From assembly GCA_001515945.1 (NCBI GenBank), contig LOER01000033.1:62001-126000 (forward strand): DNA of 64,000 bases, given 5' to 3'. Every line of letters starts with the position of its first letter. Positions within the stretch are counted from its first letter, which is position 1. The notes beneath the pieces were generated by a model. The model did not search any database. It worked only from the letters and a program-made list of their open reading frames with translations, and had not been told where the DNA came from. This DNA comes from Desulfitibacter sp. BRH_c19. Its GTDB lineage: Bacteria; Bacillota; DSM-16504; Desulfitibacterales; Desulfitibacteraceae. This document shows positions 5,994-13,749 of this stretch, one piece after another. The position numbers were made by a program, and so were the translations under genes.

Positions 5994-8324
5994 TCATTTT
6001 GCAAATTTCTCTAGACTGCCCATTTGGGAAAGCACAATTTCCATCCCATCATCACTAACCTGAAGAAACTCTTTTTGATCATAATTTAACTCATTATCAC
6101 TAAGTTTTGCCACTTTGCCGCTTCCAACTTCCATATCATAAACAACTACATGCTGCCTGTTTACATTATTTTCCTCTTTATAGCCCTTAATCACCAGCTT
6201 CGTTGAGTCATTGCTCCAGATCATTTTTGTATTAAAAAAGTCCAACTCAAAATCTACACAGTTTAAGCTTGTAATAAGATCACCATTAGCATCTATGATC
6301 CTAATATTTTTTGAAGAATATCTACTACTTCCATTCAGTTCTACGACTGCTATCTTGCTATTATCTGGTGCAACAGTAGGAGCATGAACATTTTGCTTCA
6401 GCCTGGTGGTTTTACCTGTTTTTATATCAATCTTTACAAGGTCACATATGCCTTCCCATTGTTCCCGCCAGTTTTCTAACAGCAAAGTGCCATTATCCAG
6501 CCATGTAAAATTAACAGGCAGGAGACCTTGAATGTTGTTGTTAAAATATGGTAATATGTCTGTTTCATACTTGGTAAGAATCCTTTTTCCCTTACTGTCC
6601 ATAATATATAAGTTGAGGGGTAGTCCCATAACATCATATGTGTTTTCCCCATGATAATAAGAAAATACTGCAATTTTTGTATCATCAGGGGCAGGTTTGG
6701 CACCCAAAATCCACTCGTTTTGTGCCACCTTAATCTCTGTCATTTCCCATGAATTTATATCTAATAGGTTTTGCTGGTTAGTGATAACCTTGGGGGAGTG
6801 ATTAAACCATGAGGTTTTCAGCCAACCACCTACTGCTTGAAATACCATATCCAGTTCCCTTATTTCTCCTGTTTCAACATTATAGACAGCTGGCATCCCA
6901 GGAAAAGCATCACCAGCACTAGGAAGGTGCTTAATAAAAGAAATCCACTTCCTATCTGTGGAATAGTTAAAATTGTCATACTTTTGCCCAGCAAATGTCT
7001 CCAGAACCTCCCTATTTCCTGTATCAAGATTCCAGGAGATTATATTGCGGGCATAGATATATTTCCCATTTTCCATAGCTTCACCAGTAGCATTGGATCT
7101 CCTAGAGTACTCTACACCGTCTTGATCCCAGTCCTCAGCTGTATAATAAAAATCCTCTGTTCCTTTAAGAATACAAGTTGAATAGCCTACTAATTCCAGA
7201 TCATAAATATTTAGATCGCTTGTGAAATAAAGTCCTTCAGCATTTGCATTTGGGATATCATCTCCACGCCTGGTATAGGTAAAATAATTGCCATTTGGTG
7301 ACCAAAGTGGCCCTGATAAGTAATCAACTGACCCTACTCCCTTACCATTAATAATATCAAAAACATAGCCAGTAGAAATTTTTGAAGGCCCAGTCCCTAA
7401 TATCAGATATTTTTCCTGTGGAGACCAGCTTAGGTCTGGAAGACTACCTGCATAGGAATATTTTTTGACTAGTGCAAAATATTTTCCATTCTGACAATAA
7501 GCATTATAGCCTCCTCCGTTTTTGACCAGGATAAGTTCATTTTTGCCTGAAGGTGATGTATATTTTTGCAAAATCTTATTTTTGAATGCAACTTCTAGAG
7601 TTCCATCCTCCGGTGGATACCACTGTCGATGGGAATTTCCATCCATCTGGTTATAAGCATACTCTAATACTCCATCCTCATGCCAGTGCAGCGGCCTAAA
7701 ATGCTCCTTCTGATTTGCCTTTTTTATAATCTTAGTTTCTTTACTATTAATATTATACATGACTAGATCTACAGTTCCGTCTAACTCCCATTCAATAGGG
7801 GGGTTAAGATAACGCACCTGCCCGAGAGCCAGCCAATTCCCATCAGGTGACCAAACTGGTTTTCCTACATAATTGATACTGTTCACCTTGGTATATGTTT
7901 GAGCATCTAAAATCTCACCCAGGCGTAAAGAGGACATCCCTATATCTGCAATAGCGTAGTTACTATTCGGAGACCAATAGAACCCATCAATCTTACCCTC
8001 TATTTCTGAGACAGCATTAGGCTCCTTTTCTCCAACCTGCCAAATAAAAATTCCACCCGTTTCTTTAAGCTGGTCAGCAACAATATAAGCAACCTTCTGT
8101 TGGTCAGGAGACCACGTTTCTAAGGATATATCTTTCAATTCTGCTAAATGTGCCTTTATAAACCGTTGTGAATAGTGCGATATATCAGGCAGCTGGGATT
8201 TATCTCCACTATGTTCCGCTTGGGATGGAATATTGTTTTGTTCAGGAAGTTCCTCCCGTTGGTTCATCGTACAGCTAATTGTTAATAGACTTATCATCAG
8301 CAAGATAAAGAGTACCCTTTTCAT
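5994..8324 (-). CDS. Lipoprotein with TolB/WD40-like beta-propeller repeats
   Basis: A 776-residue exported lipoprotein. The signal peptide ends in LLTISC with C18 as the lipid anchor. The body repeats motifs such as WSPDGNWLALG, WSPNGNYF, WSPQEKYLILG and WSNDSTKLVI, characteristic of PD40/TolB-like propeller blades. At least two propellers are likely. It probably binds a partner outside the membrane; no catalytic residues were recognised. The frame is open to 8366, but GGAGA before the ATG at 8324 fixes the start at the signal peptide. It is the third gene of a unit with the radical SAM gene (67 bp upstream) and the lipoprotein at 9521-10321. Confidence 0.8.
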   Translation of the reverse strand: MKRVLFILLMISLLTISCTMNQREELPEQNNIPSQAEHSGDKSQLPDISHYSQRFIKAHLAELKDISLETWSPDQQKVAYIVADQLKETGGIFIWQVGEKEPNAVSEIEGKIDGFYWSPNSNYAIADIGMSSLRLGEILDAQTYTKVNSINYVGKPVWSPDGNWLALGQVRYLNPPIEWELDGTVDLVMYNINSKETKIIKKANQKEHFRPLHWHEDGVLEYAYNQMDGNSHRQWYPPEDGTLEVAFKNKILQKYTSPSGKNELILVKNGGGYNAYCQNGKYFALVKKYSYAGSLPDLSWSPQEKYLILGTGPSKISTGYVFDIINGKGVGSVDYLSGPLWSPNGNYFTYTRRGDDIPNANAEGLYFTSDLNIYDLELVGYSTCILKGTEDFYYTAEDWDQDGVEYSRRSNATGEAMENGKYIYARNIISWNLDTGNREVLETFAGQKYDNFNYSTDRKWISFIKHLPSAGDAFPGMPAVYNVETGEIRELDMVFQAVGGWLKTSWFNHSPKVITNQQNLLDINSWEMTEIKVAQNEWILGAKPAPDDTKIAVFSYYHGENTYDVMGLPLNLYIMDSKGKRILTKYETDILPYFNNNIQGLLPVNFTWLDNGTLLLENWREQWEGICDLVKIDIKTGKTTRLKQNVHAPTVAPDNSKIAVVELNGSSRYSSKNIRIIDANGDLITSLNCVDFELDFFNTKMIWSNDSTKLVIKGYKEENNVNRQHVVVYDMEVGSGKVAKLSDNELNYDQKEFLQVSDDGMEIVLSQMGSLEKFAK

Positions 8325-8391
8325 ACTGTCTCCTTTCCCTGATATCCTACATTTTTCGTGTATCAAAAATTCTGTTACTATGTAATTGGCA

Positions 8392-9513
8392 TTAACTACT
8401 TTTCCGATCCTCTATCAATGAAAGTAGGGGATACATGTCATTATAATGCTTTTGAATAAACATGGGATTTCGTTTTTTATAAAGCTTTTTTGCCAGTTTA
8501 TCGGCAATTGGCAGGAGGATTCTCTCATGGGCACATAATACTGGTGAAACCTTTTCTATACTGCCTGTTGCCTGCTTATTCAAGCATCCGCAATGATGAT
8601 TGCAGCGGTTTCTGATTGCACACTCACCACACTCTTTCTTTTCAACTTCATTTAGTGTGTAGAGAGCCTCCCTTCTTTTCTCGATTATACCAGCATCCAC
8701 ATTACCAATGGTGCTGTCCTTTTCACCGACAAATTGAACACATGGATATAATGTACCATCAGGACCAACCGATATTTGTTTTTTTCCTAGCTCACAGCGT
8801 TCTTTTCCATATGTTTGACCGTTAATATGAGAACTTATTTTAACCTCAAAGGGACTAAGATAAAATTTATTTTCTGCTAGTGTCATTTCCAGATAAAAAG
8901 CTGCCAGCTCCTTGTACTGTTTCTCTAATTTCTTCATATCCCTATCCGTCCATACTGCAGCATAATTTAATGAACATATTAAATACCTAAAGCCTCTCTG
9001 ATACAGATATTGAACTGATTCAGCATACAAATCCACCGTATCTGGATTGACCACCATAAGTACAGGTGCATAGGGACGTTGTGAAAGCAGCAGCTCCATT
9101 TTGCTGCTAAGCTTCTTAAATGTTCCACGACCATCATTATCCACGCGGTGCTTGTCATGGGCTTCTTGTACACCGTCATGGCTTAGGGCAATAAAAAGAT
9201 TATGCTTTAAGGAGAACTCCATAAATGCTTCATCCAGTAAAAGCCCATTAGTGGTAACCTTATAGTGAAATCTACAATCATTGTTTTTTTCCATCCACCT
9301 GCAGTATTCTACAGTTTCATAAATTATATCTTTGCATAAAAGGGGTTCTCCTCCAAAAAATATGATGCCCACAGAATTTTTTTCATTTGCCGCCATATTC
9401 ACCGTTTTTACAACCGTCTCTTTATTCATTTTAAGGATATGACCCTTGTCCACATAACAGTATTTGCAAGCCATGTTGCAGTTATTTGATAAATGTAATG
9501 TATAATGCATCAT
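8392..9513 (-). CDS. Radical SAM/SPASM domain enzyme
   Basis: Radical S-adenosylmethionine enzyme of 373 residues. C12, C16 and C19 (CNMACKYC) bind the SAM-cleaving cluster, and FFGGEPLL is the SAM-binding GGE motif. A C-terminal SPASM region (from about residue 240) holds GPDGTLYPCVQF and a Cys-rich run CGECAIRNRCNHHCGC, typical of auxiliary-cluster maturases that modify peptides or proteins. It starts 7 bp after the stop of the lipoprotein gene at 9521-10321 and precedes the propeller lipoprotein, so the three are almost certainly co-transcribed. The likely substrate is the upstream protein (inference). An anaerobic sulfatase-maturase role is less likely because no sulfatase is near. Confidence 0.88.
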   Translation of the reverse strand: MMHYTLHLSNNCNMACKYCYVDKGHILKMNKETVVKTVNMAANEKNSVGIIFFGGEPLLCKDIIYETVEYCRWMEKNNDCRFHYKVTTNGLLLDEAFMEFSLKHNLFIALSHDGVQEAHDKHRVDNDGRGTFKKLSSKMELLLSQRPYAPVLMVVNPDTVDLYAESVQYLYQRGFRYLICSLNYAAVWTDRDMKKLEKQYKELAAFYLEMTLAENKFYLSPFEVKISSHINGQTYGKERCELGKKQISVGPDGTLYPCVQFVGEKDSTIGNVDAGIIEKRREALYTLNEVEKKECGECAIRNRCNHHCGCLNKQATGSIEKVSPVLCAHERILLPIADKLAKKLYKKRNPMFIQKHYNDMYPLLSLIEDRKSS

Positions 9514-9520
9514 CCATCAC

Positions 9521-10321
9521 CTATATGATTTCCTGAGCTTTAAGCCACTCAAGAAAACCCTTTACTTGCTCTCTCAGCTCGGCTGATGCCAATTCCTTGG
9601 TTTTTAGCTCCATTTCTGCATAGTCATATTGTTCAATACCTAGCTCCCTCAATTCCTCATAGGGTGTCATGGGATTATAGAATATTCCCAGGTTAAAATC
9701 ACCATTTTTCCCATTTGTTCCCTGCTGCAGCAGCTTTGCAGTAGATAAAAAGTCAAAATCATCTACCGATGACCTTATGTCCTGCTTTTTCTGCCATTGT
9801 TCATAATCTTCTCTTGATACAAATTCAAAGCCTATTTTTTTTGAAGCATCGTATCCGTCTAATGTAAGATCTCCCCTTCTTGTAGCATCTATTGCTTTCC
9901 CATCTCCTAAATAGAATTTGGTTTCAGGGATTTCCACTCCCTTTAAATCAAGAGCTTTTCTTTCAAACACAATATTATATTTTCCTGCCTCTGCCTGTAT
10001 CACATCAAAGGCTTCTTCCTCTGATAAAAATGACGGGGGTGCCACAGATACACAACCAAAGCTTCCCCTTCCATTGCCATTTTCAAAAATGGGAGCTACT
10101 GCTACTTTGTTGAGCTGACTTTTTGAAATTGATCCACCCTCGTCAGTCGATGTGCTGCAGCCAACCAATGAAAAAGCCAAAATCGAAGTTAGTGCAGCAC
10201 CAATATAGATATTACCCTTCCATCTTATTGGGACTGTCTTTAACAGATCGGGATTCTCTAACAATACAGATTTTTCCGGATATGTGGGAGCCTTGTATTT
10301 TTTGACAGGTCTTAGATTCAT
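9521..10321 (-). CDS. Lipoprotein with leader-like N-terminus, likely radical SAM partner
   Basis: A 266-residue protein of no function I can name. Residues 1-38 are a basic, proline-containing cytoplasmic stretch (KKYKAPTYPEK, then NPDLLKTVPIRWKG) that resembles a recognition leader more than a signal peptide. A membrane segment (39-54) follows and ends in SLVGC with C55 as a possible lipidated Cys. After a short linker comes NGNGRGSFGCVSVAPP (81-96) and then SFLSEEEAFDVI. The Gly/Ser/Cys-rich segment is a plausible modification site. It is the first gene of the operon and is followed after 7 bp by the radical SAM/SPASM gene. I have an impression, not checked, that this pair recurs in other clostridia. 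Confidence 0.75.
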   Translation of the reverse strand: MNLRPVKKYKAPTYPEKSVLLENPDLLKTVPIRWKGNIYIGAALTSILAFSLVGCSTSTDEGGSISKSQLNKVAVAPIFENGNGRGSFGCVSVAPPSFLSEEEAFDVIQAEAGKYNIVFERKALDLKGVEIPETKFYLGDGKAIDATRRGDLTLDGYDASKKIGFEFVSREDYEQWQKKQDIRSSVDDFDFLSTAKLLQQGTNGKNGDFNLGIFYNPMTPYEELRELGIEQYDYAEMELKTKELASAELREQVKGFLEWLKAQEII

Positions 10322-10430: not shown

Positions 10431-11678
10431 TTAGCGTGTTGCTATTTTCAAGACATCCCACATATCAGTAGATATTAAGCCTAATCTCCATAAAGCTATT
10501 CCTTGCAAATTGTATCTTTTCGCAATGCCTATTTTAGATAGAATGCTGTCTGGTGTTTCGTATGGAGCAGATATACCTAGTACTAATTTTTCAGCTGGAA
10601 CATAAGCAATAGCCATTTCAACAGCTTGTAACACTCGATTTATAGGTTCTGGTTTGGGTCCATAGTCATAAGCCATAATAATAATAGTGTCTGCTACTTC
10701 TCCCAACGCCTTGTAATCATATCCATTATATGCACTATTGGGGGGATGAATTGTCAGCGTAAGGGTTTTATTATTGGCGTGTAATTCTTCAGATAAAAGC
10801 CTAACAAACCTTGTAAACCTTTTTTGTTCATCTAACAAGGCTTCTCCTTTTTCAGAAAGCCCTAGACTCTCGAAATTAAGATTAACCCCTCCATACATTA
10901 CTACTTCTGCTAAAATGCTATTAATAGAATTTTTCATTGCTTCCTCATTTGCTATTATAGAGGAAATGGTACCATCACCATTGGTAATGTGTATTAACAT
11001 TTCCGTAGCCAAATTAAAGTCGTAGGCAGTTGTTAGAACAGCCTCCCACCCAGCTGGCCTTTGCCAACCAGTTTTACTGTTAAGAAGCAGATTGCCTTCT
11101 CTATCCATGCTGTACCAACCAAAAGCTAATTCATCTACCACATCAGTATTTCCTTTAGCAGCTTCTGGATATGGCGCTCCAAAAAGATTAGTCCAACTGC
11201 TTGTCCTAGTATCACCAAGGGCGTAAAAACCTATGACTTTCATCTCAGCAGGTGCAGATATAATTTTCACTTCATTTCTAGAGCCAATCCATTCTACATT
11301 ACAATTAAAAGCTTCGCTAAAAAAGCGAAGTGGAATCAGAGTCCTTCCATTAATAATTTGTGGAGAAACGTCTAGTGTTACAGCCATTTCATTTATGTAT
11401 GCTGTGCTGCTGCCAATTTGTAGCTGAATGCTTGTCCCTTTATCTGTAGCATTTATTGTTTGACTGCCACCGTCCCATTCAACTTTTACATTTAAGTCCT
11501 CTGCAATAGCACGAAATGGAACCAAGGTGCGTCCGTTTTCAATTATCGGTTCTACATCAAAGTTTGTTGGTAAACCATCCACAAGAACAGAAATTCTTTC
11601 CTCTTGAGCAAAAGTAATTGGTGACAAGCTAAATATTATACAGATACTCAAGAAAAGCACACCAATTAAACGTTTCAT
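10431..11678 (-). CDS. Stalk-domain protein with glycoside hydrolase family 18-like domain
   Basis: Secreted 415-residue protein. It has a signal peptide (1-25), a copper amine oxidase N-terminal-like stalk domain (about 28-140, two halves each with the NGRTL(V/I)P(F/L)R motif), and a GH18-like barrel (145-415). The catalytic strand reads GGVNLNFES with the acid E270 kept, but the usual DxxDxDxE aspartates replaced by N or G. The domain is closest in style to spore-cortex or wall chitinase-like proteins such as YaaH. Peptidoglycan or other polysaccharide binding or hydrolysis outside the cell is inferred. GGGGGAG precedes the ATG. It appears to be transcribed alone. Confidence 0.85.
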   Translation of the reverse strand: MKRLIGVLFLSICIIFSLSPITFAQEERISVLVDGLPTNFDVEPIIENGRTLVPFRAIAEDLNVKVEWDGGSQTINATDKGTSIQLQIGSSTAYINEMAVTLDVSPQIINGRTLIPLRFFSEAFNCNVEWIGSRNEVKIISAPAEMKVIGFYALGDTRTSSWTNLFGAPYPEAAKGNTDVVDELAFGWYSMDREGNLLLNSKTGWQRPAGWEAVLTTAYDFNLATEMLIHITNGDGTISSIIANEEAMKNSINSILAEVVMYGGVNLNFESLGLSEKGEALLDEQKRFTRFVRLLSEELHANNKTLTLTIHPPNSAYNGYDYKALGEVADTIIIMAYDYGPKPEPINRVLQAVEMAIAYVPAEKLVLGISAPYETPDSILSKIGIAKRYNLQGIALWRLGLISTDMWDVLKIATR

Positions 11679-11779: not shown

Positions 11780-13549
11780 TCATTTAGTAACGCATATACC
11801 GCTTTCACTAGGGTTGAGGCTGTACCAGAACACGATGCGACCATCTTCCAATACGCCTAGTATATGTGTTTGAGCAGCCTTGACTGAGGCAATATTTTGC
11901 TCAACTTTGAAGGTTTTCAAGTTAAGGCGATTGATATAACTCATATTATTTGCATTATCACTATTGTCCCAGACCGTTGTTATAAAAGAGGCATACTCCT
12001 GCCCTACATAACAATATTCAGGGAAACGAATGTAGCCTGTGTCACCAGGGTTATCCAACTCAATTTCTGTTACGACACCAGACATAAAATCCAAATATAA
12101 GCTTTTAGGAGTAGATGTTTGATTCTTAGAATCATAAATATGTGTATTTACTTCAAGTGAACCTGTATCATAATGAATATTTCCTGTGGAAGAGCATTCC
12201 GCAGTTATATCAAAGGTCTTTACTGTATCCTTTTCTAGGTCGCACAGGGTATAACCCATAGTGTTTTCATAGCCGCTCATAATAGTTATAACCTTTTTAT
12301 CTTCTGCAACAAACCTAGGAAGAAAGTGATAGGAATTATCAATTAAACTACTTTCTTCAATTGGTACTGTTTTTGAAAGAAGCTGCTCACTATTATCACT
12401 AGTATTAAAAAGCTTAACGCCTATATTATCAGTAAAAACATATTTTGTAAGATCCCTTGATACATCATAACCACCAAAGAAAACATCAGGGTTTCCCTTT
12501 TCGTCGGTAGTTGACATTGGGTCAACTTTTTCCGCTATTACTATTGGTATTGGGGTCTCTTCTAGATTCTCAAGGTTTTTATCAACGGTTATTATTTTAT
12601 TAGGGAGACGTACTACAACTTTTTCACCTGCTACCTTAACGTCAGAGTATGCAAAGTTATTGCCAAGATCAAGCGCCTTTTCTATCTCCATTGTAAGGGG
12701 ATTCATCAGCATTAATGAACCATTCTTTCCTTTTGCATAAGGTGTGTAAGCAAGAATCACCCTGTCCTCAGTTTCCCCAACCATTGAAAGCTCTTGCATT
12801 TGCCCATCAAAACCTACAATTTTGTCAAAATGTTCATAATCCCCCGTTAAGACGACCAGGTTGTTATTTATCCATTCTCGTTTGCCCTTATCAAAATATA
12901 GGCTGCCGTCATCATGCTGCCTTAGCGTATAGGTCATTGTACTATCTACTTTTCGGGTGCGGTATGTATCATATGACACTAAAACTGCTTTAATTGAACC
13001 GTCGCTATTTCTAGTAACCTTATCAAGATGCATGCCCCAAGAGTTGTTCTCAGTATTAGCCGGACGGCTCGTTCTTCCGCCAAGAGCAAAAATAAAAGCA
13101 CTTTTCTGGGAGTCATAGTAATAATCTTCAACTTCCGACAAATCTAGGCTGTTCAAATTAAAGTAACGCTGTGCATATTCAAGAACAGTATCGAGGGGGA
13201 ACAGCCGCAGATAGCCACCCTCGTCAGCTATGGCTAAACCATCCTCACCATGCTCCAATGTATACTTTTCCCATGCGTATTTGGCTATGTTAACCGGGTC
13301 TATTTCACTTGGAGCATTGAACTCAGGAGTGTTACCTATAGTAGTTATTGTATCATATAAATACTCCTGCCATAGCCTTTCCATCTCTAATGGATCAGTT
13401 ATGTCCCCGATTTGCTGATCTAATTCCTGTTTTTGTTCAGGTACAGAGGAATTATTTGACAGCTGGCCAGAATTATTTTTGCATCCAGAAACACTTAACA
13501 AAAGGACCACCATGACCATGACGAGGATTATAGTTTTATTATTCTTCAC
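11780..13549 (-). CDS. Lipoprotein, propeller-like, function unknown
   Basis: A 589-residue exported lipoprotein. The signal peptide ends LLLSVSGC with C23 lipidated, followed by a Ser/Asn/Gln linker. The rest has many short beta-strand-like blocks (for example VGFDGQMQELSMVGE, RLPNKIITVDKNL, FFGGYDVSRDLTKYVF) suggesting a beta-propeller, but no named repeat is clear. The frame is open from a GTG at 13561, but AGGGGGTG is better spaced for the GTG at 13549. It resembles the lipoprotein at 5994-8324 in style only. No catalytic motif was recognised. Confidence 0.75.
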   Translation of the reverse strand: MKNNKTIILVMVMVVLLLSVSGCKNNSGQLSNNSSVPEQKQELDQQIGDITDPLEMERLWQEYLYDTITTIGNTPEFNAPSEIDPVNIAKYAWEKYTLEHGEDGLAIADEGGYLRLFPLDTVLEYAQRYFNLNSLDLSEVEDYYYDSQKSAFIFALGGRTSRPANTENNSWGMHLDKVTRNSDGSIKAVLVSYDTYRTRKVDSTMTYTLRQHDDGSLYFDKGKREWINNNLVVLTGDYEHFDKIVGFDGQMQELSMVGETEDRVILAYTPYAKGKNGSLMLMNPLTMEIEKALDLGNNFAYSDVKVAGEKVVVRLPNKIITVDKNLENLEETPIPIVIAEKVDPMSTTDEKGNPDVFFGGYDVSRDLTKYVFTDNIGVKLFNTSDNSEQLLSKTVPIEESSLIDNSYHFLPRFVAEDKKVITIMSGYENTMGYTLCDLEKDTVKTFDITAECSSTGNIHYDTGSLEVNTHIYDSKNQTSTPKSLYLDFMSGVVTEIELDNPGDTGYIRFPEYCYVGQEYASFITTVWDNSDNANNMSYINRLNLKTFKVEQNIASVKAAQTHILGVLEDGRIVFWYSLNPSESGICVTK

Positions 13550-13749
13550 TAGGAATAACACCCCCTGTTATTACTTTTTTAGACAACTTTTTAAATTCAC
13601 CTACTATAACCAATCATTTCAATGCCCATTGCAATAAAATCTACTACTTTAATGTCCGCTCTGATATTTATTATTTTTTGGTTATATCTACTGTCTTTTA
13701 TGAGATACTAAATTAAGAAACAAATTTTCTTTAATAGGTGTTGGGTTAT

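Follow-up and report, generated by a model that had tools for sequence, protein, structure and literature searches.

The window, a stretch of 64,000 nucleotides of Desulfitibacter DNA, contains a gene for a predicted lipoprotein, P1, next to a gene for a radical SAM/SPASM enzyme. The two are probably a substrate and its maturase from a family of RiPP-lipoprotein hybrids that is apparently undescribed. In this reading, the n-region of the signal peptide would serve as the leader, a glycine motif would be modified, and Sec, Lgt and LspA would carry out export and leader removal. The computations on which this rests show adjacency and co-occurrence of the genes, a conserved leader, a lipobox pattern, the enrichment of a glycine motif, and the grouping of the enzymes into one clade. 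The features of the operon are as follows.

9521..10321, minus strand: P1, predicted lipoprotein substrate, 266 amino acids (ORF reading, family searches, homologue alignment, lipobox rule)
10211..10321, minus strand: P1 residues 1-37, signal-peptide n-region and proposed enzyme leader, KKYxxPxYPxK...PDLLKxxPxRW (pairwise identity)
10157..10210, minus strand: P1 residues 38-55, hydrophobic segment and lipobox LVGC (sequence, alignment, lipobox rule)
10010..10096, minus strand: P1 residues 76-104, conserved core APIFENGNGRGSFGCVSVAPPSFLSEEEA, proposed modification region (pairwise identity)
9524..10009, minus strand: P1 residues 105-266, alpha/beta domain with conserved C-terminal helix LREQVxxFLxWLKAQxII (AlphaFold model and alignment)
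8392..9513, minus strand: radical SAM/SPASM enzyme, 373 amino acids, proposed maturase (domain searches, alignment, tree, structure model)
9457..9480, minus strand: CX3CX2C cluster-binding motif of the enzyme, residues 12-19 (cysteines invariant in 18 aligned enzymes)
8533..8796, minus strand: SPASM-region C240, C258, C295, C298, C304, C308, C310 and C327 of the enzyme (alignment with CteB)
5994..8324, minus strand: downstream gene for the propeller lipoprotein, which is not conserved with the system (PD40 repeats and lipobox)
10431..11678, minus strand: GH18-type protein with a Cu_amine_oxidN1 domain, upstream of P1 (domain search)

The three minus-strand open reading frames and the gaps of 7 nt and 67 nt between them (the second counted from the ATG start) were found as given in the preliminary description. 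The propeller frame spans 5994-8366 from a TTG or 5994-8324 from an ATG behind AAAGGAGAC; each of the three genes has a plausible ribosome-binding site, and that of the propeller gene fits the ATG at 8324, not the TTG. The characters ascribed to the three products are borne out as well. P1 has the leader-like N-terminus, membrane segment and lipobox-like cysteine attributed to it, in the form of a 37-residue n-region, a hydrophobic segment, and the lipobox LVGC (Cys55), after which comes NGNGRGSFGCVSVAPP. The second product, described as a radical SAM/SPASM enzyme with auxiliary-cluster cysteines, has the CX3CX2C motif, the SPASM cysteines and the fold of such enzymes, and the third combines the PD40 repeats of a propeller with a lipobox. 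Near the operon lies a gene for another large predicted lipoprotein (11780-13561, minus strand), for which Pfam gave no match.

P1 has no credible family match in Pfam or NCBIfam. The mean pairwise identity of its homologues is 0.46 in the n-region, 0.63 in the core, which is the highest value of six segments, and 0.18 in the linker. The G-x-G-R-G segment is the best-conserved stretch of the protein, in keeping with the earlier proposal that P1 is modified, perhaps at a Gly/Ser/Cys segment. The cysteine part of that proposal fared less well, because the cysteine of NGNGRGSFGC is not invariant: Cys90 is kept in 8 of 10 aligned homologues, and the motif cysteine is missing from several other large precursors; the precursors without it include those of G493, G509 and L046-L047. 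Therefore, the segment appears to be important and its cysteine not essential. For the domain of P1, the best Foldseek E value is 0.41 and the best VIA-align Z score 6.7; many of the weak VIA-align matches are PD-(D/E)XK nucleases, but a Z score below 8 may reflect a common arrangement, and no fold is claimed. The weak likeness to these nucleases (Z at most 6.7) covers P1 residues 98-266 (window 9524-10030), in which E101, D155 and E166 are conserved.

P1 is rare. A scan of genome contigs detected one Formimonas warabiya locus, and P1 was accepted in 3 of 398 genomes of a phylum-wide sample (five reached the E limit and two were rejected), in 5 of 150 genomes of one family, and in 1 of 71 of one order; searches of plasmids and viral contigs gave no P1. 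The profile match G271 (23 bits, internal stops) was dropped from these counts, and G396 (16 bits) was left out of them. The gene-neighbourhood check supported the expected pairing: the enzyme gene directly adjoins P1 in 8 of 8 genomes, each counted once and that of the window included, and two tandem P1 genes lie beside one enzyme in two of these. The genes are still adjacent in distant genomes, where identity to the window proteins is 25-72% for P1 and 49-78% for the enzyme, so the pairing is more than chance. The prediction that P1 is the lipoprotein substrate of the enzyme is strengthened by this adjacency, by the conservation of G-x-G-R-G, and by the surroundings of the enzymes, in which no sulfatase motif was recognised.

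The search with the enzyme exposed a larger clostridial family beyond P1 that is apparently undescribed. Its short precursors consist of a MKITPAKNYKKPLYAIG-type n-region, a hydrophobic stretch, a lipobox cysteine, and an acidic tail of about 20-120 residues; P-x-YPT leaders are used in other clades. Because short peptides also lie beside enzymes of this same clade, the characterization of P1 as unlike ordinary short RiPP precursors was too narrow. A precursor with a lipoprotein signal and lipobox was accepted by rule beside the RiPP-type enzyme in 55 of 64 loci with enzyme scores of at least 300 bits, and in 48 of the 56 loci found through the enzyme; the remainder of the 64 are P1-first loci. 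Acceptance followed an automatic rule and then leader filtering, with lipoboxes called by a purpose-made rule and not by SignalP. As a control, the lipobox rule was applied to 179 ORFs at distances above 1.6 kb and passed 11 of them. Separately, 11 lipobox ORFs were judged to be ordinary signal peptides or spurious frames and were rejected before counting. The search of one family gave 82 places of at least 300 bits (counted by eye), of which 49 were examined and the other 33 lie outside the locus counts. One enzyme often has several precursors, with one, two, three and four in 33, 18, 3 and 1 loci, respectively. Contig or annotation limits account for five of the nine loci without an accepted precursor: the precursor is cut by the contig end in L025 and L045, the locus stops at the enzyme start in L065 and L084, and the start of the precursor in L058 is over-extended. 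The neighbour in L086, L087 and L100 is lipobox-like but off-rule, and in L051 the enzyme is interrupted and its neighbour has a membrane segment and no cysteine. A 589-residue leader-bearing protein of the family (L048:775-2544, plus strand) has a Cu_amine_oxidN1 domain, as does the GH18-type protein encoded upstream of P1.

The tails of the family are rich in a glycine motif. The pattern [LIVMYF]xG[DEGANM] occurs 144 times in 49 non-redundant tails (3735 residues), against a mean of 36 and a maximum of 53 in 1000 residue shuffles; since the pattern was picked after the tails had been viewed, this comparison shows non-randomness, not function. The motif is present in 55 of 62 unique short mature parts and occurs at least twice in 49, and six of the seven short members without it have TxG[IAM][VI]. 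The large precursors L046 and L047 have LAGDAYV or LAGDMYV just ahead of an acidic helix, where P1 has GNGRGSFGCVSV (placed by eye), which joins the large and short precursor types.

The window enzyme matches Radical_SAM with an E value of 5e-14 and Pfam SPASM with 19.4 bits, slightly under the cutoff of 21.5. In 18 aligned enzymes, C295, C298, C304 and C327 are invariant, as are the cysteines of CX3CX2C, and the other SPASM-region cysteines are nearly so. Thirty-three enzymes of the family form one clade in the enzyme tree (support 99/98), to which neither the SCIFF-type maturases nor two sister enzymes with a different small partner protein belong. The sister enzymes, L109 and L110 (255-273 bits), adjoin a small partner that is not a lipoprotein and has an HxHL....Y.LN-like segment; it may represent a related kind of substrate that is not lipidated. 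A strong enzyme match occurs in 3 of the 398 genomes of the phylum sample, and a match of 255-273 bits in 2. The enzyme profile matched 15 of 391 genomes in one search and 82 of 115 in the search of one family, where matches scoring about 205-225 bits come from other enzymes; three of these were inspected, and two of them adjoin a SCIFF-like Cys-rich peptide. L103-L105 (214-224 bits), being other radical-SAM enzymes, were dropped before counting. The search of viral contigs with the enzyme gave three weak matches only. The window genome carries a separate SCIFF-type enzyme elsewhere (L111).

The structure model of the enzyme has a pLDDT of 88.6, and the nearest solved structure is CteB (TM 0.80), followed by anSME and ChlB. 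PDB entries 5wgg and 5why are presumably the CteB / SCIFF maturase. The ChlB structure was solved with the leader of its precursor. The window enzyme begins directly at the radical-SAM core, with no added N-terminal recognition domain; therefore, leader recognition, if real, would have to be carried out by the core and SPASM domains themselves. The closeness of CteB and the best NCBIfam match, PapB (NF047865), raise the alternative that the enzyme is a PapB-type ranthipeptide maturase making Cys-Asp/Glu thioethers, which would crosslink the conserved cysteine of P1 to a nearby acidic residue; such residues come after Cys90, which most homologues keep. This alternative is rather unlikely, because the PapB score is 230.4 bits against a cutoff of 340 (three other family enzymes score 177-190 bits), several large precursors lack the motif cysteine, and P1 has one such cysteine, not six CX3D/E motifs. 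Furthermore, 32 of the 62 short substrates have no cysteine beyond the lipobox, so the Cys-Xn-Asp/Glu motifs of ranthipeptide substrates do not characterize the family, and a cysteine thioether was rejected as its general chemistry.

The propeller lipoprotein, which had been thought to work with P1 outside the cell, does not accompany the enzyme at any other locus for which the ORFs were read; its homologues elsewhere are partial and weak, and it was rejected as a partner. Among the loci read, the GH18-type gene upstream of P1 is conserved only in Formimonas. There, a transposase-like ORF (L002:4330-5625, minus strand), which we take to be of the IS110 type, separates it from P1. Consistent sulfatase neighbours had been named as evidence against the pairing, but the motif [CS]x[PA]SR had five matches among 225 frames of at least 300 amino acids at 69 loci, none judged sulfatase-like by eye, and sulfatase maturation was rejected. 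Although anSME has the second-nearest fold and also modifies exported proteins before their export, the missing motif and a family score of 107 bits against a cutoff of 349 make it almost certain that the enzyme is not an ordinary sulfatase-maturase-like activity of the anSME kind acting on an exported protein.

Within one genus, leader and enzyme also co-occur across genomes. The DNA pattern of the short leader, sought in 115 genomes of one family, matched 43, some by chance (6 matches in all for the reversed control versus 73 listed). The 85 genomes of the main genus comprise 41 with enzyme and leader, 9 with the enzyme only, 1 with the leader pattern and no strong enzyme match, and 34 with neither (Fisher 3e-14, a value inflated by the relatedness of the species); some of the nine have variant leaders, for example L050 and L100-L102. 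Eight further leader matches were inspected, mostly on contigs other than that of the enzyme match: six are full leader-lipoprotein genes, one is cut by a contig end, and one is unrelated. L131:1402 (plus strand) and L141:1384 (plus strand) are larger leader-lipoproteins with no Pfam match; the former lies on a different contig from the enzyme match of its genome, and the genome of the latter has no strong enzyme match.

The glycine motif could instead be a structural repeat. One repeat tail matches bactofilin (E 0.05) and TamB, both weakly, and the gene nearest to a SPASM enzyme need not encode its target; the lipoproteins might thus be unmodified, co-regulated partners with a beta-solenoid-like repeat, and the enzyme might act on something else. 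We regard this as very unlikely, because the n-region is under constraint, the enzyme co-occurs with the leader, leader-bearing lipoproteins are also found away from the enzyme, and the loci read share no other constant gene.

From these patterns we infer a modification, its site and an order of steps for the substrate-maturase pair. In the cytosol, the enzyme would bind the signal peptide by its conserved n-region and make a radical modification at glycine motifs past the lipobox: GxGRG[SA][FY]GC in P1 and, in short members, the repeated hydrophobic-x-G-[DEG]-x-x-V. Export of the modified protein by the Sec pathway would come next, after which Lgt would lipidate the lipobox cysteine and LspA would cleave the signal peptide; the leader would thereby be removed with no need for a peptidase or transporter dedicated to the system. 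Lgt and LspA are general in bacteria, and the loci read fit leader removal by LspA, since neither a peptidase nor a transporter gene is found repeatedly next to the two genes. About half of the short members are cysteine-free past the lipobox, which makes a thioether less likely than a crosslink or backbone change that needs no cysteine, although the chemistry is a guess.

More tentatively, and with slightly more doubt than confidence, the family could be a class of its own: lipoproteins modified by radical-SAM enzymes, with the signal peptide as the RiPP leader, signal peptidase II as the leader peptidase, and Cys-independent chemistry at hydrophobic-x-Gly-acidic repeats. One enzyme would serve several substrates in cis and in trans, and the mature products would span sizes from about 25 residues (peptides) to at least 200 residues (folded surface proteins such as P1). 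If true, this would explain how the lipoprotein pathway can be borrowed whole for leader removal and export. Because the enzyme occurs in most genomes of one sampled family, chemically altered lipoproteins may be present on the surface of many anaerobes and would have been overlooked so far.

The literature search for radical-SAM lipoprotein RiPPs, in which subscription papers were mostly outside coverage, gave no description of the family. The enzyme shares the SPASM fold with anSME; however, no sulfatase motif was recognised near the family enzymes. CteB is the nearest solved structure and its SPASM cysteines align, but SCIFF-type enzymes form a separate clade and their substrates are short Cys-rich peptides. 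PapB is likewise a SPASM enzyme acting on several repeated target motifs per substrate (NF047865; PMC9413430); by contrast, according to the accessible part of that paper, it targets Cys-Xn-Asp/Glu and its leader binding is attributed to an RRE (PMC9413430), whereas many substrates here are cysteine-free and the enzyme starts at the core. In the literature searched, RiPP-lipoprotein hybrids have so far been shown only for MNIO enzymes, as the DAG-RiPPs DybA and NedA (PMC12636315, accessible text). Its authors state that further hybrids beyond MNIOs may exist and that leader-independent pathways are expected; the word 'radical' does not occur in the accessible text (PMC12636315). The family described here would extend such hybrids from MNIO to radical-SAM enzymes, which that 2025 preprint left open. 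As in the accessible account of DAG-RiPPs, a precursor with a lipoprotein signal peptide and lipobox stands beside a cytosolic RiPP enzyme, and modification precedes export there and would do so here (PMC12636315). The modifying enzyme of all cases in that account is an MNIO, of a subfamily recognising a C-terminal motif (PMC12636315), whereas here it is a radical SAM/SPASM enzyme paired with a conserved n-region.
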